Position numbers and translations under genes: made by a program. DNA of 22,101 nt, taken from positions 1-22,101 of the forward strand of contig JAHLLK010000083.1 of assembly GCA_020444165.1 (NCBI GenBank), in the 5' to 3' direction. The notes under the pieces are model-generated. The model did no database searches, was not told the DNA's origin, and saw only the letters and a list, made by a program, of their open reading frames with translations. The DNA comes from Deltaproteobacteria bacterium (GTDB lineage Bacteria > Desulfobacterota > Desulfarculia > Desulfarculales > Desulfarculaceae). Positions 531 through 15,219 of this stretch are shown piece by piece. Position 1 is the stretch's first letter; each line of letters begins with the position of its first letter.

Positions 531-2258
531 CTAGTTCGGCAGGGTCCGGAAGGTGAAGCCAAGGGAGTTCTGCTGCTCCCAGGTGGGCAGGTTGGTCAGG
601 ATCCAGGCCAACTCATTGGGGTTGGCCGTGTAGAGGTGGTCACCCAGCCCGGCATTGTACAGGGTGTAGACCTCGGAGGTCCCGGCCTGGGCCGTGGGGA
701 ACATGAAGCCCTGGTTGTTATCGGCCTGCCAGCCCTGGCTGATCAGCGCGGTGCGCTCGCCGGCTCGCAGGGTAAGGTAGTGGGCGCCGGTGTAGGGGTT
801 GTAGAGCCGGTACACCGGCTTGCTCCCCGTCAGCTCACTGACCGAGACGAAGAAGGGCTGCGGGCTGGATTCGTCCTGCCAGCCCATGGCTATCAAGGCC
901 GTGGCTTCACCCGGGCTGATGGTGAACAAGTGCCGGCCGCTGGAGGGGTCGTAGAGCCGCCGCATGCCCACGTTGATGGCCGGGCTCACCGTGCTGGTGT
1001 CGCTCAGGGTCTTCATGAACAGCACCAGGAGCGCCTCTTCCTCGTTGTTGAGGCCCAGGTTGCCCAGTTCCGTGTCATTGACGGTGGTCGGGACTTCCGC
1101 CGCGGGCCAAACCTCCACATCCCGGGTGTTGTAGAAGTGCACGACCTCCTCGAGGGTCTTGAAGAAACCGTTGTGGGTGAAATCCTTCACGCCCCCCGTG
1201 GGCCGCTTGTCCACGTTCCTGAGGGTGGGCACCTTCTGCTTACCCCACAAAGTGGCGTCGCCCAGAATGCCGCCCACGCCCAGGTCCAGCCAGTCGACGC
1301 TCAGGGGGTTGATGTCGGCCGGCATGGTGTAGAAGGGGTTGGCCAGGTTCTTGGGCACGCCCAGGTTGTCGTAGGTGAAGTCGGTGAACAGGGGATAGCC
1401 CTCAACTCCGGCGTCCAGCACATGGCAGGCCGCGCAGTTGCCCTTGGTGGCGTCGTTGAAGATGGCCAGGCCCCGCACCTCGTCGTTGGTGAGGCCCAGG
1501 CCCTGGTAGTTCTGGAAGTTGGCCGTGGTGATCAGGGTCACGTCCAGGCCGGCCGCCCCGGCGGCATCCCAGAACTGGTCAAAACGGGAGTCAAAGGGGT
1601 TCACCTCGGCCGAGCGCTCGAAAGCGGCCACGGCATAGCCGATCACCTTATAGGCCTTGGAGGCCACGTCGCTGGCGAGCGTGAAGGTGCCGCCGCTGGC
1701 CCGGGCGGCCTCCAGCGAGAAGCCGTTGGGAACCGCGGACTCACCCCAATATCTCTGGTACAGCTTCAGGAAGTCGGCGCCGTAACTGGAGAAGATGACC
1801 TTCCAGACCACCGTCTCCACGTTGGGATTGTGCATCTCCACCCGGTTGACGGGCGGGCCAATGGCCTGCTCGGCCAGGGGATCGCCCAGGATGGCCCCGT
1901 TGGCCCGGCCGTCCCAGAACACGCCACCCACCACCAAGCCGTCCGCGTCCACGTACTGCACCGGGCTGGCGCCGGCATAGGCCGCGCTCGGAGGCTTGCG
2001 GTTACCGGCCAAGGTGGAAACCACGCCAGGCACCACCGCGCCGGCGGCATTGACAACGGGGTCGGGGCTGGCCCAACCCCAGGCCGGATCATGGCAGCTG
2101 GCGCAACTCTGGCCCGCTGGATCGGATAGGGACGTGTCGAAGTAGATTTGTTTTCCCACCTTCTCCCAGTTTTGGTCATAAACCGGTGGGGTCTCGGCCA
2201 AGGCCGGACCCGCCGCCAGGAGAAAACACACCACCCAAAGTGACCACCTAGCTAACAT
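531..2258 (-). CDS. Secreted di-haem cytochrome c peroxidase/MauG-type protein with DUF5648-like tail
   Basis: The 575-residue product starts with a Sec signal peptide (hydrophobic core at residues 7-20, likely cleavage after ALA at 21). Two c-type haem sites are visible: CASCH at residues 52-56 and CAACH at 275-279. The segment KVPTLRNV followed by THNGFFKTLEEVVHFYN is the usual C-terminal signature of the CCP/MauG family. Such proteins reduce peroxide or oxidise substrates in the periplasm or outside the cell. Residues from about 430 to the end are not part of that family. They are three DUF5648-like repeats, as in the four beta-helix genes upstream. The first repeat opens with GMRR, as in the adjacent 723-residue paralogue, which suggests the tail came from that gene. 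The start is supported by an AAGGAAG motif just upstream. The substrate is unknown. Confidence 0.9.
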   Translation of the reverse strand: MLARWSLWVVCFLLAAGPALAETPPVYDQNWEKVGKQIYFDTSLSDPAGQSCASCHDPAWGWASPDPVVNAAGAVVPGVVSTLAGNRKPPSAAYAGASPVQYVDADGLVVGGVFWDGRANGAILGDPLAEQAIGPPVNRVEMHNPNVETVVWKVIFSSYGADFLKLYQRYWGESAVPNGFSLEAARASGGTFTLASDVASKAYKVIGYAVAAFERSAEVNPFDSRFDQFWDAAGAAGLDVTLITTANFQNYQGLGLTNDEVRGLAIFNDATKGNCAACHVLDAGVEGYPLFTDFTYDNLGVPKNLANPFYTMPADINPLSVDWLDLGVGGILGDATLWGKQKVPTLRNVDKRPTGGVKDFTHNGFFKTLEEVVHFYNTRDVEVWPAAEVPTTVNDTELGNLGLNNEEEALLVLFMKTLSDTSTVSPAINVGMRRLYDPSSGRHLFTISPGEATALIAMGWQDESSPQPFFVSVSELTGSKPVYRLYNPYTGAHYLTLRAGERTALISQGWQADNNQGFMFPTAQAGTSEVYTLYNAGLGDHLYTANPNELAWILTNLPTWEQQNSLGFTFRTLPN

Positions 2259-2296
2259 CTCTTTCTTCCTTATGTGGCAGGTTCTTCTGTTATCGT

Positions 2297-2337
2297 CGGG
2301 ACAATCCCGCCCATTTCATACGCAGGGTCAGACCCTG
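2297..2337. promoter_or_regulatory. Two short palindromes upstream of the peroxidase gene
   Basis: CGGGA-caa-TCCCG at 2297-2309 and the odd palindrome CAGGGTC-A-GACCCTG at 2323-2337 lie 39 and 65 bases before the peroxidase start codon. On the minus strand a weak promoter-like pair, TTTTCA and TATGAA, flanks the second palindrome with a short 15-base spacer. The palindrome could therefore be an operator. It may equally belong to the hairpin array that follows. Confidence 0.25.
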
Positions 2338-2350
2338 AAAATGCTGTGCC

Positions 2351-2634
2351 TGGCGCTTGCGCCAAGTGGAGGCCTTAAACTTCACAATTTCGAGGATATT
2401 GCACGGTATTTTCCAGAAAAGACCGTGCAATGTTCTCCTGCGGGCCACGGATTCACCCCAAACAAGCTTCGCTTGTTTGGGGACCCCGTGGATGGCCCGC
2501 CGAATAACAAACCTGAAAGGTTTGTTATTCGTGAGGCTTGGCAAAACCCGGGCCCCCGGCAAGCTCTGCTGGCTGGGGTGGAGTCACGCTTTTGCCAAGC
2601 CGATCGTTGCCCAAGGCCGGGAGCCTGGTGCAAC
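2351..2634. repeat. Array of adjacent, non-identical hairpins
   Basis: Consecutive inverted repeats are seen as follows. 2351-2364 is TGGCGC-tt-GCGCCA. 2399-2430 has 15-base arms with one mismatch and a 2-base loop. 2440-2500 has outer arms GCGGGCCA/TGGCCCGC around a perfect 12-bp inner stem at 2456-2482. 2501-2531 has perfect 14-base arms with a GAA loop. 2535-2601 has 12-base arms GGCTTGGCAAAA/TTTTGCCAAGCC. 2606-2634 has imperfect 12-base arms. The stems differ in sequence, so this is not a tandem repeat or CRISPR. It could be clustered REP/BIME-like palindromes, nested miniature elements or a structured RNA. Confidence 0.8.
2531..2601 (+). repeat. Dispersed repeat with 12-bp inverted ends, copy 1
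   Basis: The 67-base unit 2535-2601 begins GGCTTGGCAAAA and ends TTTTGCCAAGCC. It matches the reverse complement of 22031-22097 at 64 of 67 positions by hand alignment, and the similarity continues weakly into the 4 flanking bases. The inverted ends and conserved interior suggest a miniature non-autonomous element or REP-like unit. Confidence 0.8.
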
Positions 2635-3267
2635 AGTCTCATTTCTGAGTTTAGGTTTGACGGAGATCCGGCCCAAGGGCAGTTCAATTTAGGTGATGCC
2701 TGGCCGTTGCTCACATAACCTTTTGCGCTCGATCAGGAAACATCCTGATTAAACGTAAGCTGGTTTGGCAGATTGGATAAATCGTCACAATTTGGTATTT
2801 TGAACAGAGGAAAATTCCCATTATTCTTAGTTGCTCTTGCGGTATGCTAGGATTTGTTTTTTGCGCTTCGCAGCGAGTACGCATAATTTTTTAATTATAA
2901 TAACTAGATATCCAACCATGAACCCGATTGAAATACTTCATTTCCCTTGCGTTGCGGTCAGACACCTAGGGAATTAACTTTGATATTTATTTTTACTTGA
3001 AAACACCTCTCCCTGGATTTGGCATAGATTCAAGCGCGCACCGCCCGGCTGTCCGCTCCGGAAAATCAGGTCTTTCATATCTATTGACTAGGTTTTTAAT
3101 TGATAACCATTGCTGTTTTTTGGGGGAGAGCCTTTCCCCAGGCGGGAGCACGGCACGGCAAAAGCAAGACGCTAACGGTTTGGCTGAAGATGGGGGAGGA
3201 GGCGGATCTGGCAGGGGGTTGAAGAAGTCCATCCAGGGCCTTTTTCAACCAAACTTGGCAAAAGCGA

Positions 3268-3325
3268 GGCTGTGGCAAACCGCTAGTTGCCCCAGGCAGG
3301 GAGCCTTGGGCAACCGTCTCTAATT
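3268..3325 (+). repeat. Degenerate copy of part of the hairpin array
   Basis: This stretch aligns with about 2590-2646. Both contain a TTGCC(C)-AGGC-…-GCCT-…-GCAAC hairpin and the flank GTCTC(T)A(A)TT. Just before it, ACTTGGCAAAA at about 3254 resembles the inverted end of the 67-base repeat. The hairpin here is 3286-3297 paired with 3303-3314, with one mismatch and a 5-base loop. It lies immediately after the stop of the 723-residue paralogue and may affect 3'-end formation, but no U-run follows on the minus strand. Confidence 0.55.
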
Positions 3326-5491
3326 GGGCTGTGGCCGGAAGGCCCAGCCCAGGGAGCTTTGTTGCGACCACAGGGCCAGGTTGGCCAGGATCCAAGCCCC
3401 CTCCGAGCTGGTGGTGTAGAAATGCTCGCCCAGGACGGGGTGATACAGGGTGAGCACCTCGCTGGCCCCCGGCGCCGCCGCGGGGAACATGCGCCCCTGG
3501 TCGCGCTCGGCCAGCCAGCCCAGGCTCACCAGGAAGTCCCGCTCCCCGTTCTTGAGGGTCAGGTAGTGCTCGCCCGAAAAGGGGTTGTAGAGCCGGTGCA
3601 CCGGCCGGCTGCCCGGCAGGTTCGTGGTGGTCACGTAAAAGGGCATGGGGCTGGATTCGTCCCGCCAGCCCAGGGCGGTGAGCGCCGCGATCTCCCGGGC
3701 GCTGAGGGAGAACACGTGCCGGCCGGTGACCGGGTTGCAGGCCCGCCGCATGCCCACCAGGCTGCCCGCTCCCAGGGCCAGATCGACCGCGACCTGCCCG
3801 GTCCGGCCGTAGGTGGGGGTGGGGTCCGCCACGGTTATGAGCGCGGCATGGGTCCCCGGGGCCAGGCCGGCCGTGTCGTAGGTCACGGTGACCGTCTGGC
3901 TGCCCCCGGGAGCCACCGTGCCCGACGCAGGGTCCAGGCGAAGCCAGGCGGCGTTGCTCCCGGCGGTGAAGTTCAGTGGCGCGCCGCCCAGGTTCCGCAC
4001 CAGGAAGGTCTGGGGCGCGGGGTTCCCTCCCAGGGTGGCGGCGGGGTGCAGGCCGTCCGGCGTGAGGGCCAAGTCGCCGGTGCTCACGGTCAGGCTCACC
4101 GCGATCTGCCTGGTCCGGAAGTACACCGGGGTGAGGTCCGCCACGGTGATCAAGGCGAAATAGGAGCCCGGGGCCAGGCTGGCCGTGTCATAGGTCACGG
4201 TGACGGTCTGGCTGCCCCCGGGAGTCACCGTGCCGGAAGCCGGGTCCAGGCGAAGCCAGGAGGCGTCGCTCGAAGCCGTGAAGTCGAAGCCCAGGGCGCC
4301 CTGGTTCCCCACCTGCAAGGCCTGGGGCGCGGGGTTCTGGCCCAGGGGGGCGGCGGGGCTCAAGCTGGCGGGCGCGAGGACCATTCCCGGCGTGGGATAT
4401 TCCCGGGCCCCGATATCCACCACCTCGTTCTGCACCCGGGGAGTCATTTCCAGGTCCAGGAGAAGGTCTGCCACGGCGGAGTTGTAGCCCGCGTCCCGGC
4501 AGGGGGAGCCGGCCGTGGGAAGATAGGAGCCGTCCAGAAGGGGGTCCTCGTTCAGGTTGTCCTGGGGGTTGAAGGAGATGGCCGCGTCGCCGCTGTAGGC
4601 GGCCACCAGGTTGTTCCACAGGATGACGTCGGGATAGGGCCCGGCCACATTGGCGCGGGCATAGATGTCGTCGCTGTCCGGTGCAGTGGCGGTGTTGCCC
4701 CAGAACAGATTGTTATAAAGCTCGGGCGCCCAAGCGGCGCTGAGCATGAAGAGGTACACTCCCCCGCCCTGCAAACCGGCGTTGTTGACAAAGGTGTTGT
4801 TGGTCAGCTGCACCGGGCCCGAAACCTCGACGTACAAACCTCCCCCGTACCCCGCGGCTCCCCCGTCATTGCCCACGAACAGGCAATTGTCCACGCTGGC
4901 GTATCCCTGGGCGCTGGTGCTGAGGAGCAGGCCCGCGCCGTAAAGAGCCATGCTCCCCGAAGCAAGGCCGTTGCCGGAGAAGATCGAGCGGGAGACTTGG
5001 ATGCGGGTCGCGTCGAGGAGCACTCCCCCTCCCCAGGCAACCACCGCCTTATTGTTCAGGAAAGAGCAGTCCGTAACCACGATTTGGGTGTTGCTTCCCA
5101 TAAAGTCCGCATAGAGGCCCCCGACATTGGGGCTGATGTAGCCATTCTGGAGGACCAGGTCACGGAGGGTTATGGACGTCCCGCTGGCGAAGGACCTCAA
5201 CAACATCACCCGGTAGGTGCCGCCGCCGTCCAGGATGGCCTTGCCGCCCTGGCCCTGGATCACCAGGGAGTGGTTGGACTGGCCGGTTTCGAATCTGGCG
5301 GTTTGGGTCAGATGGTAGGTGCCCGCCTGGATAGCGATGGTGTTGTCCTCGTTGTTGGCAGCCGCCGTGGCCAGGGCGGCGGTCAATTCGGCTTCGCTGG
5401 TCACCTCGAAGATGGCGGCCGCCGCGGCGGTCGGCAGGGCCAGAAAGACCAAACACCAGAGGACAGCCAGGGACTTTCCAGCGGCAGGCAT
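3320..5491 (-). CDS. Secreted beta-helix protein with two BACON-like domains and DUF5648-like tail (paralogue 4)
   Basis: 723 residues. Residues 1-26 form a Sec signal peptide. The mature protein opens with FEVTSEAELTAALATA…GTYHLT, the entry motif of CSLREAI-type right-handed beta-helix proteins. Helix turns with asparagine-rich rungs (VDNCLFVGN, LTNNTFVNN, LYNNLFWGN) run to about residue 365. Two near-identical Ig/BACON-like domains follow, at about 370-473 and 474-577, each with WLRLDPASGTV and GGSQTVTVTYDTA. Residues 580-723 are three DUF5648-like repeats. It is the longest of the four paralogues because of the second BACON copy. No sortase, PEP-CTERM or autotransporter anchor is visible. 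GGGGGGAAG precedes the ATG. The likely location is the outer surface or matrix. Polysaccharide binding is inferred from the domain types and has not been shown. Confidence 0.88.
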   Translation of the reverse strand: MPAAGKSLAVLWCLVFLALPTAAAAAIFEVTSEAELTAALATAAANNEDNTIAIQAGTYHLTQTARFETGQSNHSLVIQGQGGKAILDGGGTYRVMLLRSFASGTSITLRDLVLQNGYISPNVGGLYADFMGSNTQIVVTDCSFLNNKAVVAWGGGVLLDATRIQVSRSIFSGNGLASGSMALYGAGLLLSTSAQGYASVDNCLFVGNDGGAAGYGGGLYVEVSGPVQLTNNTFVNNAGLQGGGVYLFMLSAAWAPELYNNLFWGNTATAPDSDDIYARANVAGPYPDVILWNNLVAAYSGDAAISFNPQDNLNEDPLLDGSYLPTAGSPCRDAGYNSAVADLLLDLEMTPRVQNEVVDIGAREYPTPGMVLAPASLSPAAPLGQNPAPQALQVGNQGALGFDFTASSDASWLRLDPASGTVTPGGSQTVTVTYDTASLAPGSYFALITVADLTPVYFRTRQIAVSLTVSTGDLALTPDGLHPAATLGGNPAPQTFLVRNLGGAPLNFTAGSNAAWLRLDPASGTVAPGGSQTVTVTYDTAGLAPGTHAALITVADPTPTYGRTGQVAVDLALGAGSLVGMRRACNPVTGRHVFSLSAREIAALTALGWRDESSPMPFYVTTTNLPGSRPVHRLYNPFSGEHYLTLKNGERDFLVSLGWLAERDQGRMFPAAAPGASEVLTLYHPVLGEHFYTTSSEGAWILANLALWSQQSSLGWAFRPQPN

Positions 5492-5889
5492 GCTTCCCCC
5501 CAGGATTCAAATCAGGTATTCCGGCGCGAAAAGCGAACATGTGCCGGCAAGGATGAACGTTGTTAATTTTCGGACAACTATGCCACAAAACACGGGATTT
5601 ACCTAGCGGGATTTTTGGGCGAGTTGAACATTCGGCGGCGTGTTTGAGGTCCGATCCTGGATCGTCAAGCGGCAGATAGGCCGCGCAAGTCCCAAACAGG
5701 CAAAGCCCACCCTTTGGCTAATCGGTTTAGCCTTTTAGGAAGTGCGGGTGATCTGGAGCGTCAGGGATTTGTTGAAAACTAAAGATGTTCCTTGGCCAGC
5801 AAATCTAAGATCAATGCGCCGAGAAATCCCTGCCGGCAGCAAGGCGGGTACCTGCCAAGGTACGCCCACCCTCAACCTCGGCTGGTCAG
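5492..5889. other. Non-coding gap between paralogues 3 and 4
   Basis: This 398-base gap has no gene I can support. It carries the leader of the 723-residue paralogue on the minus strand and the 3' flank of the 627-residue one. Small hairpins occur at 5716-5732 (GGCTAA/TTAGCC), 5830-5839 (CTGCCGGCAG) and about 5843-5867 (GTACCT/AGGTAC core). I found no clear promoter. Confidence 0.5.
5829..5868 (-). terminator. Possible terminator after paralogue 3
   Basis: On the minus strand, 20-30 bases past the stop, an interrupted hairpin (core GTACCT/AGGTAC with flanking GC pairs) is followed by the palindrome CTGCCGGCAG and then GATTTCTC. The U-tract is weak and the stem is bulged, so this is tentative. 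Confidence 0.25.
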
Positions 5890-7773
5890 CTAGTTGGGCC
5901 AGCGCCGGAAGGCCCAGCCCAGGGAGGTCTGCTGCTGCCAGGGCGGCAGATTGGCCAGAATCCAAGCCAACTCCCGGGGGTTGGCCGTGTAGAGATGGCC
6001 GCCGGTGTCGGGGTGGTAGAGGTGGTAGACCTCCGCGGCCCCGGCCACCTGGCCCGCGTACATCCAGCCCTGGTCCCGCTCGGCCTGCCAGCCGAGCCCC
6101 ACCAGGGCGTCCCGCTCCCCGTTGTTGAGGGTCAGGTAGTGCACCCCGGTCCAGGGGTTGTAGAGCCGGTGCGCCACCCGGGAGCCGGAGATGGCCGTGG
6201 AGGCCACCGAAAAGGGCACGGGCGAGGACTCGTCCGACCAGCCCAGGGCCACGAGGGCGGCCTGTTCGTGGGGGTCCGTGGTGAAGAGGTACTGGTAGTC
6301 CGCGGGATTGTAGAGCCGGTACATGGTCCGCTGGGTGCCCGCGTCCACGTTGAGGTTCACCACGAAGAGCCGGGTGGTCCCGTGGGTCACGTCCCGGCCC
6401 AGCACCAGGGCCTGGTACAGGCCCGGGGTCAAGCTGGCGGCGGCGAAGCTGGCGGTCACGTCCTGGCTGCCCACCGGGCCCAGGTGGCCGGCCGCGGTGT
6501 CCAGGGAGAGCCAGGGCCGGTCCTCGGTCAGGGTGAAGTCAATGGCCGCGCCGCCCAGGTTCCGCGCCTGGAAGACTTGGGAGGCGGGGTTCAGGCCCGG
6601 GGCGGTGGTCACCGCCAGGTAGGCGGGCGCGAAGCCCAAATCACCCACGGGGTACTCGTAGGCCCCCCGGTCCACCACCCCGTTCTGGATGCGGGGCAGG
6701 CTGTCCAGGTCCAGGGCGGTCAGGCCCGGCGCGGCGTTGTCGCCGGTGTCCCGGCAGGGTGAGGTATCGGTGGGCCGGTAGTTCACGTCCAGGCCGGGGT
6801 CCACGTCCTGGTTGGCCGTCTGCAAAATCAGCTCCGGCGCATCTCCGTCGATTTCACCCAGGATGTTGTGGGAAAACATGATCTTGGCTTCTATGCCGGG
6901 TTCGTCCCATTCCACAAAAACGTCCGCCGGGCTGGGCACATCCACCGTATTGCCCCGGATCACGTTATTGTACACTGGGGCGGTGTACACTTCCGGGGCC
7001 ATGATCAGGAAGAGGCCGCCCACCGCCGCGGCGTGGTTGTTCACGAAGGTGTTGTTGACCAGCGCGAAGTCCGTGGGCACCACGGTCATCAACCCGCCCC
7101 CCACACAAAACGTCGCCCCGGCGTCGTTGTCGATGAACAGGCAATCAGCCACCCGCACTTGGCCGTCTATGTCCGAGAGGATGGCCGCCCCCCCGCCTTG
7201 GCACGTGAATCCCGTGGGATCGAAGGTGTTGCGGGCGATGATGCAGCGCTCCAGGATCACCGTGTGTGACTCCAGGTAGGTCCCTATCCCCTGGCCGAAC
7301 ATCGGTGAAAAATTGTCCAGGAATTGGCAGTCCTCCACCCGGACCACCGCGTCCACCCCGTACATGCTGACTTCCAGGCCCATGCCGGGATAAGGGTCCG
7401 GGCCGCCGCCGTGCTGGAACACCAGGTTCTGGAAGGTTAGGATAAAGCGGTCGCCGTCGGGGTAGAAATAGGCCACCTGGTTGGCGTCGCCGCCGTCCAG
7501 GACGGCCAGGCCGCCGTCACCCCGCACGGTCAGGGAGCGGTCCGGGACGTCGTTCTCAAAGGCAAGGAAGGTGCTCAGGTTATAGGTGCCAGGAGCTATA
7601 TTGATGACGTTGTCTTCGTAGTTGGTCTCGCACTGGGCCAGGGCGGCCACCAGCTCCGCTTCGTTGGACACGTTGAAAACCGCCGCCGCTGCGGGGGAGG
7701 CGGAAGCGCTCAAGAGCGCCACCGCCAGGGCCGCCAGACAGGCCCAACGGGCCGCCAAGCCGGAGAAACGCAT
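5890..7773 (-). CDS. Secreted beta-helix protein with BACON-like and DUF5648-like domains (paralogue 3)
   Basis: 627 residues. The signal peptide is residues 1-30, ending in SPAAAA. The beta-helix starts with VFNVSNEAELVAALAQ…GTYNLS and runs to about residue 370, with rungs such as VEDCQFLDN and LVNNTFVNN. One BACON-like domain lies at about 377-482 (WLSLDTAAGHLGPVGSQDVTASF). Three DUF5648-like repeats fill 483-627 (YRLYNPADYQYLFTT, HRLYNPWTGVHYLT, YHLYHPDTGGHLYT, each ending at a GW or LPPW). AAAAGGA lies 7 bases before the ATG. It has the same architecture as the two genes upstream but is more diverged from them. The C-terminus RRWPN resembles those of the 723-residue paralogue and the peroxidase. 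The role is unknown; a surface or matrix carbohydrate-binding protein is an inference. Confidence 0.88.
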   Translation of the reverse strand: MRFSGLAARWACLAALAVALLSASASPAAAAVFNVSNEAELVAALAQCETNYEDNVINIAPGTYNLSTFLAFENDVPDRSLTVRGDGGLAVLDGGDANQVAYFYPDGDRFILTFQNLVFQHGGGPDPYPGMGLEVSMYGVDAVVRVEDCQFLDNFSPMFGQGIGTYLESHTVILERCIIARNTFDPTGFTCQGGGAAILSDIDGQVRVADCLFIDNDAGATFCVGGGLMTVVPTDFALVNNTFVNNHAAAVGGLFLIMAPEVYTAPVYNNVIRGNTVDVPSPADVFVEWDEPGIEAKIMFSHNILGEIDGDAPELILQTANQDVDPGLDVNYRPTDTSPCRDTGDNAAPGLTALDLDSLPRIQNGVVDRGAYEYPVGDLGFAPAYLAVTTAPGLNPASQVFQARNLGGAAIDFTLTEDRPWLSLDTAAGHLGPVGSQDVTASFAAASLTPGLYQALVLGRDVTHGTTRLFVVNLNVDAGTQRTMYRLYNPADYQYLFTTDPHEQAALVALGWSDESSPVPFSVASTAISGSRVAHRLYNPWTGVHYLTLNNGERDALVGLGWQAERDQGWMYAGQVAGAAEVYHLYHPDTGGHLYTANPRELAWILANLPPWQQQTSLGWAFRRWPN

Positions 7774-7796
7774 GATCGATCCTTTTCCGCCGGGGT

Positions 7797-7828
7797 AAAA
7801 ATGCTCCGGGGGGCGCGGCTCCCCGGGC
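7797..7828 (-). terminator. Intrinsic-terminator-like hairpin in the leader of paralogue 3
   Basis: On the minus strand, GCCCGGGG (7828-7821) pairs with CCCCGGAGC (7811-7803) with one bulged A, followed directly by ATTTTT. It lies 24 bases before the ATG of the 627-residue gene and about 120 bases after the stop of the gene upstream. It can be read either as the terminator of paralogue 2 or as an attenuator in the leader of paralogue 3. Confidence 0.5.
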
Positions 7829-7847
7829 GGCTCCGGCGGTGGAGATC

Positions 7848-7876
7848 AATATGCCATGATTTCCTAGGAATTTGAA
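7848..7876 (-). promoter_or_regulatory. Candidate sigma-70 promoter for paralogue 3
   Basis: The minus strand reads TTCAAA, a 17-base spacer, then CATATT. Each box matches the consensus at 4 of 6 positions. The predicted start of transcription is about 68 bases before the ATG, upstream of the terminator-like hairpin. Confidence 0.4.
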
Positions 7877-7904
7877 CCCGAAAAACCACCGGGGACGGCG
7901 GAAA

Positions 7905-7945
7905 TAAGGCGGGGCCGCCCGGCTCTCAGGGACAGCCCCGGCGGG
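7905..7945 (-). terminator. Possible terminator after paralogue 2
   Basis: Immediately after the stop the minus strand can fold CCGCCGGGGCT against AGCCGGGCGG with one mismatch, and TTATTT lies shortly after the stem. The stem is GC-rich but imperfect. Confidence 0.3.
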
Positions 7946-7947
7946 GC

Positions 7948-9801
7948 CTAGCGGTAGGCCCAACCCAGGGAGCTTTGCCGCTGCCAGGCCGGCAGGTTGG
8001 CCTGAACCCAGGCCAGTTCATGGGGGTTGGCCGTGTAGAAATGGCCGCCCGTGGCCGGGTCGTAGAACTTGTATACTTCCCAGGCTCCCCCCACGCTCGT
8101 GGGGAAGGCCCAGCCCTGGTCCCGCTCGGCCCGCCAGCCGAGGTTCACCAGGGCGTCCCGTTCGCCGTTACGCAGGGTCAGGTAGTGCTGGCCGCTGGCG
8201 GGGTCATAGAGCCGGTGCACCGGCCGCGCGCCCGCGAGCGCCGTGCCGGCCAGGTAGAAAGGCGCCGGGGTGGACTCGTCCGACCAGCCCAAGGTGGCCA
8301 GGACCTGGGCCTCCCGGGCGTCGGTGGTGTAGAAGTGCTGCCCGTCCGCGGGGTGGTAAAGCCGGTACACCGGCTTCTGCGTCCCGGCGTCCACCGTGAG
8401 GTTCACGGTGATCTGGCTGAAGGCCCCGGTGGCCTGGTTCCGCCCCACGATCGCGGCCTGGTGCAGGCCCGGGGCCAAATCACCGGTGGCGAAGGACACG
8501 GTCACGTCCCGGCTGCTCACCGGGCCCAGGTTGCCGGACGCGGGGTCCACCGCGAGCCAGGGCTGGTTGGCGGCCAGGGCAAAGGTGAACCCCAAGGCCC
8601 CCAGGCTGCGCGCCGACACGATCTGGGTCACGGGGCTCTGGCCCGGGGTCGTGGTCAGGTTAAGGGTCGCCGGGGTGAGGAGCAGATCGGCCGAGGGGTA
8701 CTCGTAGGCCCCCCGGTCCACCACCTGGTTTTGCACCCGGGGCAGCCCGTCCAGGTCGACCGCCGGCAGGTCCGGGGCGGCGTTGTCGCCCGTGTCCCGG
8801 CCGGGGGAGGCCGCGGTGGGCCGGAAGTCGGCGTCCAGGGCCGGGTCCTGGTCCAGAGTGCCGTTTTCCGCGAACAGGTCCGCCGGGGAAGCCGCGTGAG
8901 CTCCCAGGATATTGGCGGAAAGCGTCACGGGCACCATGGGGTCGGGGTAGCCGGTGGCCGCGAAGATATCGTTGGATTCCGCCAGGGTCGCGAGGTTGCC
9001 CCAGATCACGTTGTTGGCCAGAGTGGGTTGGCCCTGGTTGGAGTCCAAGGACAAGGCCACGCCGCCGCCGGCCATGGCGCGGTTATCCACGATGGTGTTG
9101 TTGACCAGGGTCACGTCCCCCGTGCCCTGGCAGTAGATGGCCCCGCCCAGCCCCGCGAGGATCTGGTTGCTGCTGAACAGGCAATCGGCCACCAACACCC
9201 GGGTTTGCGCCTCGGCCATGATAAACAGCCCGCCTCCCCGTTCACCGGCTCCTCCCACCGTGGTCTGGTTGCGCTGGAAAACCGAGCTTTCCACCACCAC
9301 TTCCCGGGTGGCCGAGACCAGAGCCCCCAGGCCGAGGCCGGTGACTTGCTGGTTATCCAGGAAGGCGCAGTTAGTGACCCGGATCGTGGTGTCGGTCCCG
9401 GTCAAGCCAACCAAGAGCCCGATCCCGGCCACGTAGCCACCACCCCCATGTTGCACGGTCAGGTTTTGCAGGCTCAGGCTGTAGCCATCCCCTGCGGCCT
9501 GGAAATTGGCCACCTGCAGCACCCCGCCGCCGTCCAACACCGCCTGCCCTCCTACGCCCAGGAGCACCAGGGAGTGGTTGATTTCAGCGCTGCTGAAAGT
9601 GACGGTGGCGGTCAGGTTATAAGTGCCGGCCGCCAGGTTGATGGTGTCGTCTTCGTTGTTGACCGCCGCGGTGGCCAGGGCGGCAGTCAGCTCGGCCTCG
9701 TTGGCCACGTCGAACACGGCCGCCCGGGCCGGGCCGGGAGCCAGGCAGATCAGGGCGCAGAAAACCGCCAGAAACCACAGGCAAGGTCGGTAGGCAGGCA
9801 C
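7948..9801 (-). CDS. Secreted beta-helix protein with BACON-like and DUF5648-like domains (paralogue 2)
   Basis: I place the start at the GTG at 9801, giving 617 residues. This puts the signal peptide (VPAYRPCLWFLAVFCALICL…ARA) at the very N-terminus, as in the paralogues (MPAAGKS…, MPPARIL…), and GGGGGGGAAA precedes it. The ATG at 9873 would add 24 non-hydrophobic residues. The beta-helix (AVFDVANEAELTAALATA…) runs to about 370. One BACON-like domain follows (WLAVDPASGNLGPVSSRDVTVSFATG). Three DUF5648-like repeats cover about 477-617, and the protein ends GWAYR. It is closest to the gene upstream: 61 consecutive bases at 8100-8160 are identical to 10117-10177, which suggests recent duplication or gene conversion. 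Confidence 0.87.
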   Translation of the reverse strand: MPAYRPCLWFLAVFCALICLAPGPARAAVFDVANEAELTAALATAAVNNEDDTINLAAGTYNLTATVTFSSAEINHSLVLLGVGGQAVLDGGGVLQVANFQAAGDGYSLSLQNLTVQHGGGGYVAGIGLLVGLTGTDTTIRVTNCAFLDNQQVTGLGLGALVSATREVVVESSVFQRNQTTVGGAGERGGGLFIMAEAQTRVLVADCLFSSNQILAGLGGAIYCQGTGDVTLVNNTIVDNRAMAGGGVALSLDSNQGQPTLANNVIWGNLATLAESNDIFAATGYPDPMVPVTLSANILGAHAASPADLFAENGTLDQDPALDADFRPTAASPGRDTGDNAAPDLPAVDLDGLPRVQNQVVDRGAYEYPSADLLLTPATLNLTTTPGQSPVTQIVSARSLGALGFTFALAANQPWLAVDPASGNLGPVSSRDVTVSFATGDLAPGLHQAAIVGRNQATGAFSQITVNLTVDAGTQKPVYRLYHPADGQHFYTTDAREAQVLATLGWSDESTPAPFYLAGTALAGARPVHRLYDPASGQHYLTLRNGERDALVNLGWRAERDQGWAFPTSVGGAWEVYKFYDPATGGHFYTANPHELAWVQANLPAWQRQSSLGWAYR

Positions 9802-9879
9802 GGATTTCCCCCCCAAGCCGCCGGGCAGGCAAAAACGGTTATGGTTGGGATGCGGATGCAAGCTGATGGCCACCGGCCC

Positions 9880-9885
9880 TGTATA
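9880..9885 (-). promoter_or_regulatory. Candidate -10 box for paralogue 2
   Basis: The minus strand shows TATACA, with a poor TTATTT -35 some 17 bases upstream. It predicts a start of transcription at about 9873. That fits the GTG start at 9801 and argues against the ATG at 9873. Confidence 0.25.
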
Positions 9886-9928
9886 GCACCATCTCCGGTA
9901 AAAAATAACCTTTTTTTGGGGGCTGCGG

Positions 9929-9954
9929 CGGGCCCGCCCCGGGGGACGGGCCCG
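9929..9954 (-). terminator. Hairpin after paralogue 1
   Basis: CGGGCCCG at 9929-9936 pairs with the same palindrome at 9947-9954, starting 11 bases after the stop of the 618-residue paralogue. On the minus strand it is followed by C and A runs, with T6 only about 25 bases later. This is not a textbook intrinsic terminator. Confidence 0.3.
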
Positions 9955-9964
9955 GGGTCAGGTC

Positions 9965-11821
9965 TTAGCGGTAGGCGTAACCCAGGGGGCTTTGTTGCTG
10001 CCAGGCGGGCAGGTTGGCCTGGATCCAGGCCACCTCGTGCGGGTTGGCCGTGTAGAAATGGAAGCCCGTGGCCGGGTCGTAGAACGTGGCCACCTCGCTG
10101 GCTCCCCCCAGGCTGCTGGGGAAGGCCCAGCCCTGGTCCCGCTCGGCCCGCCAGCCGAGGTTCACCAGGGCGTCCCGCTCGCCGTTTCTGAGGGTCAGGT
10201 AGTGCGCGCCGCCCGCGGGATTGTAGAGCCGGTGCACCGGCCGCGCGCCGGGGTGCGCCGTGCTGATGAGGTAGAAGGGCGCCGGGGTGGACTCGTCCGC
10301 CCAGCCCAGGGCCGCCAGGGCCTGGGCCTCGTGGGGGTCGCTGGTGAAGAAGTGCTGCCCGTCTCCAGGGTTGTAGAGCCGGTACACCGGCTTCTTGGCC
10401 ACATCTTCCACGGTGAGGTTCACGGTGATTTGGCTGGAGTTTCCGCTGACCAGGTCATGCCCCACGATCTGGGCCTTATAGGCGCCCGGGGCCAGATTGC
10501 CGGTGGCGAAGGACACGGTCACGTCCCGGCTGCCGACCGGGGCCAAAGGCGCCGACGCGGGGTCCACCGCGAGCCAGGACTGGTTCAGGTCCAGGCCAAA
10601 CTGGAAGCCCAAGCCCCCCAGATTGCGCGCGGTCACGATCTGGGCCACGGGACTCTGGCCCGGGGTCGTGGTCAGGTTCAGGGTCGCCGGGGTGAGCAGC
10701 AGCTCGGCCGCCGGGTACTCATAGGCCCCCCGGTCCACCACCTGGTTCTGCACCCGGGGCATCCCGCCCAGGTCCAGGGTCCCCAGATTCGGGGCGTTGT
10801 TGTCGCCGGTGTCCCGGCCGGGCGAGGCCTCGGTGGGGCGGAAGTTGCCGTCCAGGGCGGGGTCCTGGTCCAGGGTGCCGGTTTCGTTGAACACATTCGT
10901 GGGATCCCCGACCCGGGCGCCCAGGATGTTGTTACCCAGCACCACCGCCGTATATGGAACCACATAGTTGAAGGCACAATACAAATCAGCTCCCCCCCCC
11001 GCCACGGCGGTGTTGCCCCGGATCACGTTGTTCACCACCTGCGGCTGGGTGGCGCCGGAACGCAGGTCCAGGAACACCCCACCCGTTGTTCCCGCGTGGT
11101 TGCCCACCACGGTGTTGTTGACCAGCGTGTAGTCCGCCCCTCCGGTGCAGTACAGGGCCCCACCGGCCCCCCCGCTTTCCCCTCCCTGGTTGCCGGTGAA
11201 CAGGCTGTCGCTCACCAGGATCCGGCCCGCGATATCGTTGACGACGATCGCCATGCCCCCGCCCTGCACAAAGGCGGTCGCGGGCGTGGCGGGCGCATTG
11301 TCCTGCACGCGGCAGCGCCGCACCTCCACCAGGGCGGTGGCCCTCAAAACCGACCCGGGGCCGAGGCCATCGCCGCCCACATTGTTCAGTACGGTGCAGT
11401 CCGCCAGGTGCAGGGAGGAGTTGGCGCCCTGCAGCTGGACGGCGAGGCCGGCCCCGTTGGCCACCCCGGCTCCATGCCGAAAATGCAGGTTTTGCAGGGT
11501 AAGGGATATGCCTTCCGTGGCGCTGGTGAACCTGGCCACCTGCACGGTGTTCCCGCCGTCCAGCAAGGCTGGCCCCCCCACCCCCTGCAACACGAGGGAA
11601 TGGTTGGTTTCGGCCGTATCGAAGACCAGGGTGCTGGAGAGGCTGTAGTAATTGGAGGCCAGGTTGATGGTGTCGTCCTCGTCATTGGCCGCCGCAATGG
11701 CCAAGGCGGCGGCCAGCTCGGCTTCGCTGGCCACGTCGAACACCGCCGCCGAGGCGGGTCCGGGGAGCAGGGTGAAGAGGGACAGACAGACAACCAGGGA
11801 CAGGATTCTGGCGGGGGGCAT
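9965..11821 (-). CDS. Secreted beta-helix protein with BACON-like and DUF5648-like domains (paralogue 1)
   Basis: 618 residues. The Sec signal peptide is residues 1-25, ending PASA. The beta-helix opens with VFDVASEAELAAALAIAAANDEDDTINL and has rungs such as VSDSLFTGN, LVNNTVVGN and VVNNVIRGN up to about residue 370. A single BACON-like domain follows (WLAVDPASAPLAPVGSRDVTVSFATG), then three DUF5648-like repeats at 478-618 (YRLYNPGDGQHFFTS, HRLYNPAGGAHYLT, ATFYDPATGFHFYT), ending GYAYR. GAGGT lies a few bases before the ATG. It is first in the tandem array and probably has its own promoter. Nothing indicates an enzyme active site. A structural or carbohydrate-binding extracellular role is inference. 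Confidence 0.88.
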   Translation of the reverse strand: MPPARILSLVVCLSLFTLLPGPASAAVFDVASEAELAAALAIAAANDEDDTINLASNYYSLSSTLVFDTAETNHSLVLQGVGGPALLDGGNTVQVARFTSATEGISLTLQNLHFRHGAGVANGAGLAVQLQGANSSLHLADCTVLNNVGGDGLGPGSVLRATALVEVRRCRVQDNAPATPATAFVQGGGMAIVVNDIAGRILVSDSLFTGNQGGESGGAGGALYCTGGADYTLVNNTVVGNHAGTTGGVFLDLRSGATQPQVVNNVIRGNTAVAGGGADLYCAFNYVVPYTAVVLGNNILGARVGDPTNVFNETGTLDQDPALDGNFRPTEASPGRDTGDNNAPNLGTLDLGGMPRVQNQVVDRGAYEYPAAELLLTPATLNLTTTPGQSPVAQIVTARNLGGLGFQFGLDLNQSWLAVDPASAPLAPVGSRDVTVSFATGNLAPGAYKAQIVGHDLVSGNSSQITVNLTVEDVAKKPVYRLYNPGDGQHFFTSDPHEAQALAALGWADESTPAPFYLISTAHPGARPVHRLYNPAGGAHYLTLRNGERDALVNLGWRAERDQGWAFPSSLGGASEVATFYDPATGFHFYTANPHEVAWIQANLPAWQQQSPLGYAYR

Positions 11822-11991: not shown

Positions 11992-12085
11992 TTGGCGGAA
12001 AGCGTGACCCAGAGGGCTCAGTTGCTCCCACGGGGCAAGGCGGTCAGGGTGGCGGCCACGGAGGGCGGCGGTTCGCGCCAGGGAG
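11992..12085 (-). pseudogene. Frameshifted relic of a DUF5648-like C-terminal tail
   Basis: On the minus strand one frame reads PWEQLSPLGHAFR, which matches the paralogue endings AWQQQSPLGYAYR and TWEQQNSLGFTFR. The preceding segment, VAATLTALP, matches the usual AWIQANLP but is in another frame. A single-base deletion near 12030, relative to the peroxidase gene tail, explains the shift. The stop codon that normally follows is missing and the upstream part of the module is not recognisable. This is a remnant of another family member. Confidence 0.6.
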
Positions 12086-12146: not shown

Positions 12147-13544
12147 TCAGTAGGCGTGGGGGCTGACCCAGCCGCGCACCAGGGTGATCAGGACGATCTT
12201 GAGGTCGAACCAGAGGGACCAGTTCTCGATGTAATAAAGGTCGTGCTCGATGCGGCGCTCCAGGGAGGTGTTGCCGCGCCAGCCGTTGATCTGGGCCCAG
12301 CCGGTCATGCCGGCCTTGGTCTTGTGGCGCAGCATGTAGCCCGGAATTTGGTGGCGGAACTCGGTGATGAACTCGGGCCGCTCCGGCCGGGGCCCCACCA
12401 GGCTCATGTCGCCGCGAAGCACGTTGAAAAGCTGGGGCAGCTCGTCCAGGCTGGTCTTGCGGATGAAGGAGCCGAAACGGGTGCGGCGGGGGTCCTCGGG
12501 GCAGGCCCACACCGGGCCGCAGTCCCTTTCCGCGTCCCGGGCCATGGAGCGGAACTTCAGCATGTCAAATACCCGGCCGTCCATGCCCATGCGCTTTTGG
12601 CGGTAGAGCACCGGCCCGGGGGAGGAGAGCTTCACCCCCAGGGTCACGGCCAGCATCACCGGGCCCAGGAGGATGATGGCCACCAGGCTGCCGGCCAGAT
12701 CCATGGCCCGCTTGGCCACCCGGGCCCAACCCTCCAGGGGGCTGCCCCGGAGCCCGATGATGGGCATGCCCTCGAACTCCTCGATGGAGTTCTTGAAGCG
12801 CATGAAGCGGTAGAGGTCGGGCACGATCTTGATGTCCACCATCTCGTCGGCCACGTTGTTGATCACGTCGTAGATGCGGTCGTGGGCCGCCAGCGGCAGG
12901 GCGATGATCACCACCTGCACGGGGTTGCGGGCCAGCACCTCGGGGATTTCCTGGTACAGGCCCATGACCGGCAGTTCGTCCACGGTCTGGCCCACCAGCT
13001 CCGGGCGCCGGGTGAGGAAGCCCACCAGCCGGAGGCCCAATTCGGGGTGGGAGCGGATCATCTGGGCCACGGTGCGGCCCAGCTCCTCCACCCCCACGAT
13101 GATCACCCCCTCGCCGGGGTCGCTCTTCCGGCGGCGGGTCCAGACCCGGTGCCAAAAGGGGCGGCTGACGATCATGGTCACCGTGAGGAGTATGAAGAAC
13201 TGGGCAAAGACCAGGCGGGAAAGCTCATAGGCCCGGAGGAAATAGGTGAGGGCGATGGCCACCACCGCGCCCAGGGTGACCGCCCGGAGGATGGGCCACC
13301 AGGCCTGGGCCAGGCGGGCCCAGGGCCGGCGGTACAACCCCATCACCGGCAAGGTCACGGCGAACACCGTGAGCACCAGAAAGAGCAGGATGACGTATTG
13401 CTGAATGGGCGGAGTGCCCTTGGTCACCGGGATTATGGGCAGGAAGAAACGAACGTAATAGGAAAGAAGCCAACAGACGGCCACCAGGGCCAAGTCGCCC
13501 GCGTAGAGGACTGAGCGAAAAAATTGCAGGCGTTTCTGGAACAT
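12147..13544 (-). CDS. Polyprenyl-phosphate sugar-1-phosphate transferase (WcaJ/PssY-like)
   Basis: 465 residues, the full length for the undecaprenyl-phosphate glucose phosphotransferase type. Four hydrophobic segments occupy about residues 13-128. A Rossmann-like domain begins near 147 (GVIIVGVEELG). The catalytic bacterial sugar transferase domain starts near 275 (KRAMDLAGS plus a membrane segment). It contains SPGPVLYRQKRMGMDGR, KLRS-like KFRSM, RKTSLDELPQLFNV and SLVGPRPE (381-388), and the protein ends in SPHAY. The enzyme transfers a hexose-1-phosphate to the lipid carrier at the inner membrane, the first step of exopolysaccharide units. The sugar cannot be told from the sequence. AAAGGG precedes the ATG. 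No glycosyltransferase cluster follows; instead the secreted beta-helix genes do. Confidence 0.92.
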   Translation of the reverse strand: MFQKRLQFFRSVLYAGDLALVAVCWLLSYYVRFFLPIIPVTKGTPPIQQYVILLFLVLTVFAVTLPVMGLYRRPWARLAQAWWPILRAVTLGAVVAIALTYFLRAYELSRLVFAQFFILLTVTMIVSRPFWHRVWTRRRKSDPGEGVIIVGVEELGRTVAQMIRSHPELGLRLVGFLTRRPELVGQTVDELPVMGLYQEIPEVLARNPVQVVIIALPLAAHDRIYDVINNVADEMVDIKIVPDLYRFMRFKNSIEEFEGMPIIGLRGSPLEGWARVAKRAMDLAGSLVAIILLGPVMLAVTLGVKLSSPGPVLYRQKRMGMDGRVFDMLKFRSMARDAERDCGPVWACPEDPRRTRFGSFIRKTSLDELPQLFNVLRGDMSLVGPRPERPEFITEFRHQIPGYMLRHKTKAGMTGWAQINGWRGNTSLERRIEHDLYYIENWSLWFDLKIVLITLVRGWVSPHAY

Positions 13545-13611: not shown

Positions 13612-13974
13612 TCACACGCCCCGGACTTTTTCGTTGGCCTCTTGACGCTTTTTGCAGTCAATGCACAAAGTGGTCACCGGCCGAGCCTTCAACCGTTCGT
13701 CGCTGATGTCCTCACCGCAGGACTCGCAGATACCGTAAGAGCCGTCATCGATGCGCTCCAGGGCTTCCTCGATCTTGGCGATGAGCTTCCGCTCGCGGTC
13801 CCGAATCCTCAAGAGGAAATTGCGGTCCGACTCCATGGCCGCCCGGTCGGTGGGATCGGGCAGATTGTCCTTGTCGTCGGTCATGCCGCTCACCGTACTC
13901 GCGGCTTCCTTGCGCAACTCCTCCAGCTTCTCATGCATCAAATTGCGGAAGAATTCCAGTTTTTCCTGGTCCAT
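13612..13974 (-). CDS. dksA: DksA/TraR-family RNA polymerase-binding regulator
   Basis: 120 residues, shorter than the about 151 of the E. coli protein but typical of short DksA forms. The N-terminal half is a predicted coiled coil. D40, D43 and A45 form the DxxDxA tip motif needed for action in the RNA polymerase secondary channel. A four-cysteine zinc finger is complete (C83, C86, C104, C107). The protein is expected to work with ppGpp in stringent control of rRNA and amino-acid genes. AGAGGA lies 5 bases before the ATG, and a good promoter lies at 14012-14040. The DxxDxA motif favours DksA over a plain TraR-like protein. Confidence 0.9.
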   Translation of the reverse strand: MDQEKLEFFRNLMHEKLEELRKEAASTVSGMTDDKDNLPDPTDRAAMESDRNFLLRIRDRERKLIAKIEEALERIDDGSYGICESCGEDISDERLKARPVTTLCIDCKKRQEANEKVRGV

Positions 13975-14011
13975 GGCATCCTCTCAGTCCCACGGGCTGA
14001 TTGACGCGGGA

Positions 14012-14040
14012 ACTTTAGCACGCTGACCGGCGGGTGTAAA
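14012..14040 (-). promoter_or_regulatory. Candidate sigma-70 promoter for dksA
   Basis: The minus strand shows TTTACA (5 of 6), an exact 17-base spacer and TAAAGT (4 of 6). The predicted start of transcription is about 31 bases before the dksA ATG. A loose stem after the dnaJ stop (AAGCTC/GAGCTT) overlaps the -35 box. Confidence 0.5.
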
Positions 14041-14076
14041 GCTCGGGAGCGGTGTTTGGCTCTTCCCCGCGGGAGC

Positions 14077-15219
14077 TTAGTTGAAACCCCAACGCCGTTT
14101 TTTCTTCTTCTCACCCCCAAGGGCGGCTTCGCCCTCGGCCGGGGGCAGGGACGCGGCCTCGCGGTCGCCCAGGGCCGCCGCCTCCTCCAACAGCTCCTTC
14201 TGCCGTTTGCTGAGCTTGGAGGGGGTCTTCACCACCACCTGCACCAACAGGTCGCCCCGGCGTCCGCCCCGGAGGCTGGGCATGCCGAGCCCGGCCAGCT
14301 TCAGGGCCTGGCCGGTCTGCACCCCGGCCGGCAAGGGCAGTTCGGCCTCATCGTCCACCAGGGTGTCCACCATGACCGTGTGGCCCAGGGCGGCCTGGAA
14401 CATGGAGACTTCCAGGCGGCGGTAGAGATTGTCGCCTTCGCGCTCGAACACCGCATGGGGCGCCACGTGCACCACCACATAGAGGTCGCCGGGGCCGCCG
14501 CCCCGGAAGCCGCCCTCGCCTTCGCCGCGCATGCGGAGCCGCTGGCCGTGGTCGATGCCGGCCGGCACCTTCACCGACAGCTCCCGCTCCTGGAAGGCGC
14601 GGCCCCGCCCGCCGCAGTCGGGACAGGGGTCGGTGATGACCCGGCCCTCGCCGCGGCACACCGGGCAGGTGGTGGCCAGGCGGAAGAAGCCCTGGGCCCG
14701 GATCACCTGGCCGGAGCCGCCGCAATGGGCGCAGACGCTGGGGCCGGCGTCGTCGGCCGAGCCGGTGCCGTTGCAGGTCTTGCAGTTCACCTCGCGGCCG
14801 GCCTTGACGCTGGTTTCGAAGCCCTGGGCCGCCTGCTCCAGCGTGATCTCCAGGTCATAGCGCATGTCCCGGCCGGGCTGGGGGCCGGTGGCGCCCCTGC
14901 CGCGGGCCTGGCCGCCAAAGCCGAAGAGGTCGCCGAAGATGTCGCCGAAGGTGCTGAAGATGTCCTCGACCCCGCCGAAGCCGCTGAAGCCGGAGCGCTT
15001 GAGGCCATCGTGGCCATACATGTCGTAAAGGCGGCGCTTTTCCGGGTCCCGGAGCACCTCGTAGGCCTCGGCGCACTCCTTGAAGCGCTCCTCGGCCTCG
15101 GTGTCGTCCGGATTTCGGTCCGGATGATACTGCAGGGCCAGCTTGCGGTAGGTTTTCTTGATGACCTCGATGTCGCAGTCGCGCTCGACACCTAACGTCT
15201 CGTAGTAGCACTTCTTCAT
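14077..15219 (-). CDS. dnaJ: Chaperone DnaJ
   Basis: 380 residues from the ATG at 15219 ([11 protein letters not shown]). An in-frame ATG at 15255 would add 12 residues not found in the family. The J domain carries HPD at 32-34. A Gly/Phe-rich linker follows (SGFSGFGG…[13 protein letters not shown]). All four zinc-binding CxxCxGxG repeats are present ([32 protein letters not shown]; about 146-206). The two client-binding beta domains complete the protein. DnaJ stimulates DnaK ATPase and delivers unfolded clients. No dnaK or grpE lies in the window, so this copy is separate from any dnaK operon here. The C-terminus is lysine-rich ([10 protein letters not shown]). Confidence 0.95.

Follow-up and report, generated by a model that had tools for sequence, protein, structure and literature searches.

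A DUF5648 tail common to four tandem beta-helix proteins and a di-haem peroxidase, and its possible role in surface retention

What might four consecutive secreted proteins of similar build be doing beside the gene of an EPS-type sugar transferase in a deltaproteobacterial genome, and what holds them where they act? The stretch of DNA analyzed here, which we call the window, is 22,101 bases long (66.6% G+C), and the genes described below lie on its minus strand. In reading order they begin with an ABC-type transporter set (profile matches to ABC_tran, ABC2_membrane, ABC_transp_aux and DUF4340) and an Rpb6/omega-type gene (Pfam), which are followed by genes for DnaJ, a DksA-type protein and a WcaJ-type transferase, by four paralogues (P4, P3, P2 and P1) and by a di-haem peroxidase; the contig ends 530 bases past the peroxidase gene.

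The four tandem paralogues of the first-pass annotation are present with a common layout. P4 (9965..11821, 618 aa), P3 (7948..9801, 617 aa), P2 (5890..7773, 627 aa) and P1 (3320..5491, 723 aa) share one order of domains, namely a hydrophobic N-terminus, a predicted right-handed beta-helix, a choice-of-anchor-Q motif, one or two Ig regions and a DUF5648 tail. The helix lies at about 10715-11749 in P4, 8698-9723 in P3, 6652-7686 in P2 and 4397-5419 in P1; the Ig region at about 10385-10714, 8368-8697, 6322-6651 and, as a pair of copies, 3749-4396; and the tail at 9968-10384, 7951-8367, 5893-6321 and 3323-3748. P3 is read from a GTG start at 9801, where the predicted protein P0001 (617 aa) begins, and its open reading frame as listed begins at 9873. 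Compared pairwise, the four share 37-53% identity over the helix region and 58-81% over the tail.

Most parts of this layout can be traced to profile scores or to regularities in the sequences themselves. An N-terminal hydrophobic stretch with an AxA site, found in all four proteins, is signal-like, as had been proposed. Beta-helices with asparagine-rich rungs are likewise predicted, since Beta_helix (PF13229, cut-off 25.9 bits) is listed for all four (P1 35.5, P3 34.8 and P4 31.2 bits, above the cut-off; P2 23.2, below it), and each helix has five rungs of the form C/S/N-x-hydrophobic-x-x-N spaced about 26-36 residues apart. The count of this motif stands out from residue shuffles at p <=0.008, the motif having been picked after the sequences had been viewed. 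Searches of structure databases returned no significant similarity between any solved structure and the helix or the tail. NCBIfam includes a CSLREA model, and no CSLREA family appears among the NCBIfam matches of P1-P4 up to E=1; the CSLREAI-like entry to the helix that had been described was rejected for want of a match. At the helix exit, choice_anch_Q (NF041518, cut-off 25 bits) is above its cut-off in P3 (30.1) and P4 (25.1) and below it in P2 (24.5) and P1 (21.9). This exit motif and the Ig region of P1 resemble those of choice-of-anchor Q/D proteins (NF041518, NF012200), partly below cut-off, but in P1-P4 it is DUF5648 that comes after the motif. The BACON-like label given to the Ig regions suits P1, which scores 64.9 bits with BACON_2 (PF19190, cut-off 25 bits) and 32.3 with BACON (PF13004), and the relatives P0005 (43 bits), P0032 (31.6) and P0004 (89.8), all above the BACON_2 cut-off; it is less apt for P2 (20.6), P3 (18.3) and P4 (14.7), all below. 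P1 owes its two Ig copies to a duplication of about 312 bases within the gene. The DUF5648-like tail (PF18885, cut-off 25 bits) is well above cut-off throughout, at 75.5 bits in P1, 86.0 in P2, 128 in P3 and 96.1 in P4.

Right-handed beta-helices are common among polysaccharide lyases and glycan-processing enzymes. Considered together with a tail that resembles a carbohydrate-binding module and with the WcaJ neighbor, this fold would fit an array of lyases or other glycan-processing enzymes, each with an ordinary carbohydrate-binding module, that degrades or remodels polysaccharide. We regard such a cluster as improbable, as the Pfam and NCBIfam matches of P1-P4 include no lytic, pore-forming, lyase or hydrolase domain, and the invariant polar positions of seven homologues, judged by eye, are mostly rung asparagines and glycines and the choice-of-anchor-Q motif.

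Some of the paralogues may have exchanged sequence with one another. In P4 and P3 the 3' halves, which comprise the choice-of-anchor-Q segment, the Ig region and the tail, look homogenized by recombination while the helices have diverged: dS between the two genes falls from 0.83-0.95 in the helix to 0.26-0.31 over the rest of the sequence, starting with the choice-of-anchor-Q segment, and the difference at four-fold sites drops from 0.40 to 0.15 past residue 328 (permutation p 0.0008). A homogenization signal below an uncorrected p of 0.05 is seen in three of the six gene pairs (P4-P3, P3-P2 and P2-P1; 0.0008, 0.0054 and 0.0232), with the P3-P2 break at residue 131, within the helix. The helix has a GC3 of 0.83-0.85 and the later segments one of 0.84-0.96, a difference that could contribute to the signal. 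In addition, the spacer between WcaJ and P4 holds, on the minus strand, a trace of 15 residues (11995..12039) that looks like the end of a DUF5648 tail, with a local score of 53 that none of 300 Markov shuffles reached (maximum 52); it is short and no more than suggestive of a lost further paralogue.

Is the array tied to exopolysaccharide synthesis? The adjacency itself was correctly reported, as a WcaJ-type undecaprenyl-phosphate glucose phosphotransferase (12147..13544; TIGR03023 492.9 bits, cut-off 410.75) lies upstream of P4. WcaJ forms the end, in the window, of a conserved chromosomal block, DnaJ-DksA-WcaJ-Wzm/Wzt, whose other members here are DnaJ (14077..15219; NCBIfam and locus comparison) and the DksA-type protein (13612..13974; Pfam and locus comparison). 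The best relatives of this WcaJ, which have the same gene order upstream of it, come from Desulfarculaceae JdFR-95 (65%), from Dethiosulfatarculus sandiegensis (61%), a member of the class Desulfarculia in the phylum Thermodesulfobacteriota, and from a deltaproteobacterial MAG (60%). Our sample of 21 WcaJ loci comprised 19 over-cut-off places in 18 of the 63 genomes of the class and two below the cut-off. In 17 of them WcaJ is at least 60% identical to that of the window, and 16 of these 17 have Wzm and/or Wzt downstream, recognized by ABC2_membrane and by ABC_tran together with Wzt_C, an assignment confirmed on D. sandiegensis. Only L133 departs from this, with different genes in the 5 kb that follow WcaJ. 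The array thus occupies the place that polysaccharide exporter genes hold in relatives. Queries with P4, P1 and the peroxidase gave no match above 45 bits in the 21 loci, some of them cut short and one with only 500 bases downstream. The functional EPS partnership that the first-pass annotation had suggested consequently fails as a general one: among these relatives the array was detected beside WcaJ in 0 of 21 loci, the window being the one place where the two were seen together, and WcaJ belongs to a conserved block. The link of the array to EPS is weak. Within the block, 16 related loci have MoaC between the DnaJ and DksA genes; it is missing from the window, where about 100 bases (13974-14077) separate these two genes.

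A stronger clue comes from a fifth tailed gene, which the proposal of a four-gene system, right about the four paralogues, had overlooked. Beyond these four, at 531..2258, the same DUF5648 tail (534-962; 95.4 bits) stands on the core of an unrelated, secreted di-haem peroxidase. This core matches CCP_MauG (PF03150) at 85.4 bits against a cut-off of 25.6, has CXXCH at residues 52 and 275, and finds its best solved relatives in the di-haem peroxidase 6nx0 (E 7.8e-33) and in MauG. It is a relative of MauG only, and MauG proper is excluded by a score of 34.9 bits with TIGR03791, whose equivalog cut-off is 443.85.

Several comparisons suggest how the peroxidase came by its tail. The core has its best homologue in P0039, a tailless protein of 437 aa that shares 74% identity with it and ends at the core-tail junction. 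For the peroxidase tail, identity is 80% to the tail of KQJ78_25260 (P0005), which is related to P1-P4 and comes from another MAG, versus 51-58% to the tails of P1-P4 themselves. Support for this pair of tails is 91/92 in a tree of eight tails, just below the starred level, and 99/94 in a tree of 25. From the end of P0039 at the junction and from the tail match to the other MAG we infer that the DUF5648 tail was probably grafted onto the peroxidase, and in that direction. P0039 may instead have lost a tail, or the fused gene may be a misassembly of the single window contig, a reading with which the presence of the fusion on one contig only would agree. Among 120 listed core homologues (of 7,998 matches), PF18885 occurs only on the window's own peroxidase, and one listed homologue bears a different C-terminal tail, PF18962. 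The peroxidase tail being nearer to a tail of another MAG than to those of its neighbors, tails in the window do not simply follow the genome.

That other MAG holds a comparable set. In a similarity search with P3, five of the 30 listed proteins align over most of its length, namely P2, P3 and P4 themselves together with KQJ78_25255 and KQJ78_25260, both on a single 7,482-base contig of that MAG. Querying with the peroxidase tail adds KQJ78_25250, so that three successive locus tags make up the set in this second MAG, with Beta_helix at 22-26 bits (cut-off 25.9, one above) and DUF5648 at 85-99 bits. As to the reach of these searches, the matches listed for P3 do not include P1, and those listed for the peroxidase tail include none of P1-P4.

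What, then, could the common tail do? Work on other proteins connects DUF5648 with glycans. Among the MACPF toxins of Bacteroidales, the largest group has it as C-terminal domain; this group holds homologues of three toxins targeting the O-antigen of other strains (PMC12853789), and the domain is thought to recognize the O-antigen of the victim. It is also an auxiliary domain of GH70 enzymes, described as a (beta3alpha)3 structure of three ~45-residue units with surface aromatic residues (PMC11299179), and one GH25-DUF5648 endolysin is reported (PMC13379245). The window tails presumably share this fold. The BSAP-2/BSAP-3 group, which has been tied to O-antigen glycans as receptors, resembles the window proteins in that its secreted proteins, too, end in this Pfam family, and differs in that its DUF5648 belongs to a MACPF toxin on a surface lipoprotein, whereas the window has beta-helices and a di-haem peroxidase with no pore-forming domain listed (PMC12853789); in GH70 the same PF18885 is joined to a glucan-synthesizing enzyme (PMC11299179). 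These relatives are our grounds for supposing that the tail binds glycans. The earlier description of a secreted, glycan-binding-like surface protein thus fits where the tail is concerned (PMC12853789, PMC11299179), and is weak where BACON is taken as the glycan binder, a later study having reported one BACON domain without substrate binding (PMC12853789). No binding experiment on DUF5648 itself was found in the literature searched, which was consulted in part, had most subscription journals outside its scope and contains one paper that names PF18885 and three that name DUF5648.

On this basis we propose that DUF5648 is a portable, probably glycan-binding module that retains the rods and the peroxidase at the surface, a reading that we favor and to which we would give about an even chance. 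Each protein would consist of a passenger, an Ig spacer in the case of the beta-helix proteins, and a DUF5648 tail. The N-terminal signal would take the protein across the inner membrane, and the repeat-built tail, to judge by its relatives, may then bind polysaccharide on the cell surface or in the matrix and thereby retain whatever stands before it. Displayed in this way would be four diversified beta-helix rods, probably structural or adhesive, and a MauG/CCP-like di-haem peroxidase onto which the portable tail has probably moved; glycan binding, self-retention and a matrix role of the tailed proteins are all inferred. Speaking for this reading are the occurrence of one tail on genes as different as the four paralogues and the peroxidase, the comparisons with P0039 and KQJ78_25260, and the drop in four-fold-site difference along P4 and P3. 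Retention on LPS has a precedent in the Caulobacter S-layer, which binds O-antigen (PMC6978808); the likeness, drawn at the level of mechanism and not from a comparison, is that a secreted protein stays non-covalently attached to O-antigen of the cell that made it, and that layer is a crystalline one of another protein.

Tails from elsewhere in the phylum also support this proposal. Our comparison of 25 tails combined eight from the window and KQJ78 lineages with 17 from 14 of the 23 phylum genomes that match PF18885, leaving out the other nine (partial, weak or unlisted matches) and a fifth match in genome G088. In G088, of the same phylum, four different passengers carry tails that share 68-75% identity among themselves, against 32% at most with the remaining tails of the comparison. 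The passengers are a beta-helix recognized by eye (Pfam lists DUF5648 only), an SBBP/DUF7948 protein, a multicopper-oxidase-like protein (a weak match, 22.7 bits against a cut-off of 21, in an incomplete copy whose tail ends early) and an S8 protease. These tailed proteins are located on L100 1-9497 and L101. A further G088 locus, L110 430-3528, matches the helix part of the family profile and has SpaA-like and InlB-type repeats, with DUF5648 not listed. Other DUF5648 proteins of the phylum have Ig/BACON-like regions (partly below cut-off), agglutinin or RHS regions, and the spread over different passengers extends to a Lactococcus phage protein with a GH25 annotation and a related tail.

The tail might also act outward: by recognizing a polysaccharide on other cells or on a substrate, it would deliver helix and peroxidase there to capture, adhere or antagonize, much as proposed for the DUF5648 domain of the Bacteroidales toxins. 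The three described toxins of the DUF5648 group, which target the O-antigen of other strains (PMC12853789), would fit such a role, as would a Lactococcus phage protein annotated as GH25 that bears a related tail (found in the phage search with the P2 tail). We consider outward delivery a serious but unlikely possibility: the four helix proteins have no listed lytic or pore-forming domain, and in both the window lineage and G088 a single tail type serves several passengers, which is easier to reconcile with one constant ligand. This sharing of one tail type by several passengers in two lineages is what leads us to prefer, modestly, retention on the surface of the producer.

Several observations count against the retention proposal: no binding by DUF5648 itself and no solved relative of the tail turned up, the array was not found with WcaJ elsewhere, the homogenization signal is confined to three of six pairs and goes with a difference in GC3, the fused peroxidase is known from one contig and has a tail nearer to that of another MAG than to those of its neighbors, and myxobacterial tails track orthology. 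In four myxobacterial genomes the tails of beta-helix proteins are 87-93% identical across genomes and 48-56% identical (28% for L181) to other DUF5648 tails within the genome, which rules out a rule that tails always follow the genome. The myxobacterial proteins L158, L163 and L165 have, like P1-P4, a Beta_helix match, at 59-73 bits, ahead of a DUF5648 at the C-terminus, at 113-117 bits; unlike P1-P4 they have no Ig domain listed, and the L158 tail is 29% identical to that of P4. This protein of L158 (1-1926), a beta-helix with C-terminal DUF5648, was found in four of the genomes compared. In the myxobacterial L178 and L184, DUF5648 stands before a metallophosphoesterase domain.

Tails that follow orthology, and a WcaJ adjacency seen only once, would also be expected if P1-P4 were an ordinary expansion of choice-of-anchor proteins placed by chance beside WcaJ, with DUF5648 a generic stability or oligomerization domain that has no specific ligand. 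Such an expansion explains poorly both the likely graft onto the peroxidase and the four G088 passengers with one tail type, and of the explanations weighed here we find it the hardest to credit.

A bolder and rather doubtful reading would be that DUF5648 is a general non-covalent surface-sorting tag of Gram-negatives, which some lineages have tuned to the polysaccharide they make themselves and which recombination has moved onto secreted proteins of unrelated kinds (rods, peroxidase, copper oxidase, protease); the intergenic trace and the likely graft would then show the process in action. A tail that holds proteins on the cell's own sugar coat would be an anchor common to several phyla, in proteins currently annotated as unknown, and would account for the gathering of rods and unrelated exported enzymes in one matrix.

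PF18885 was found weakly in 4 of 63 genomes in the class of D. sandiegensis, one of them above cut-off together with its neighbors, in 23 of 395 genomes sampled in the phylum (21 above cut-off), in 54 of 195 in the phylum of G443 (a Myxococcus) and in 4 of 249 in the phylum of G447. Profile A2 gave weak partial matches in 6 of the 63 class genomes, and a first genome scan with the paralogue alignment gave no matches. Among plasmids, 320 records match P3; the 20 listed span 20-30% of it, from about residue 443 on, and none of the 320 covers 80%. Viral contigs, searched with two short patterns only, gave no match, and seven phage records match the P2 tail, the sole query used. A phage or plasmid origin of the array was rejected on these results.

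Around the genes themselves, no RNA element reached the gathering threshold, and a promoter scan found one site in 14.1 kb versus 2.0 expected, not at the array. The gap of about 1 kb between P1 and the peroxidase gene (2258-3320) has lower G+C and several imperfect inverted repeats. Just past the peroxidase gene, at 204-233, a perfect 13-pair hairpin is followed by a T-rich stretch on the plus strand, and may be terminator-like or the end of a mobile element.
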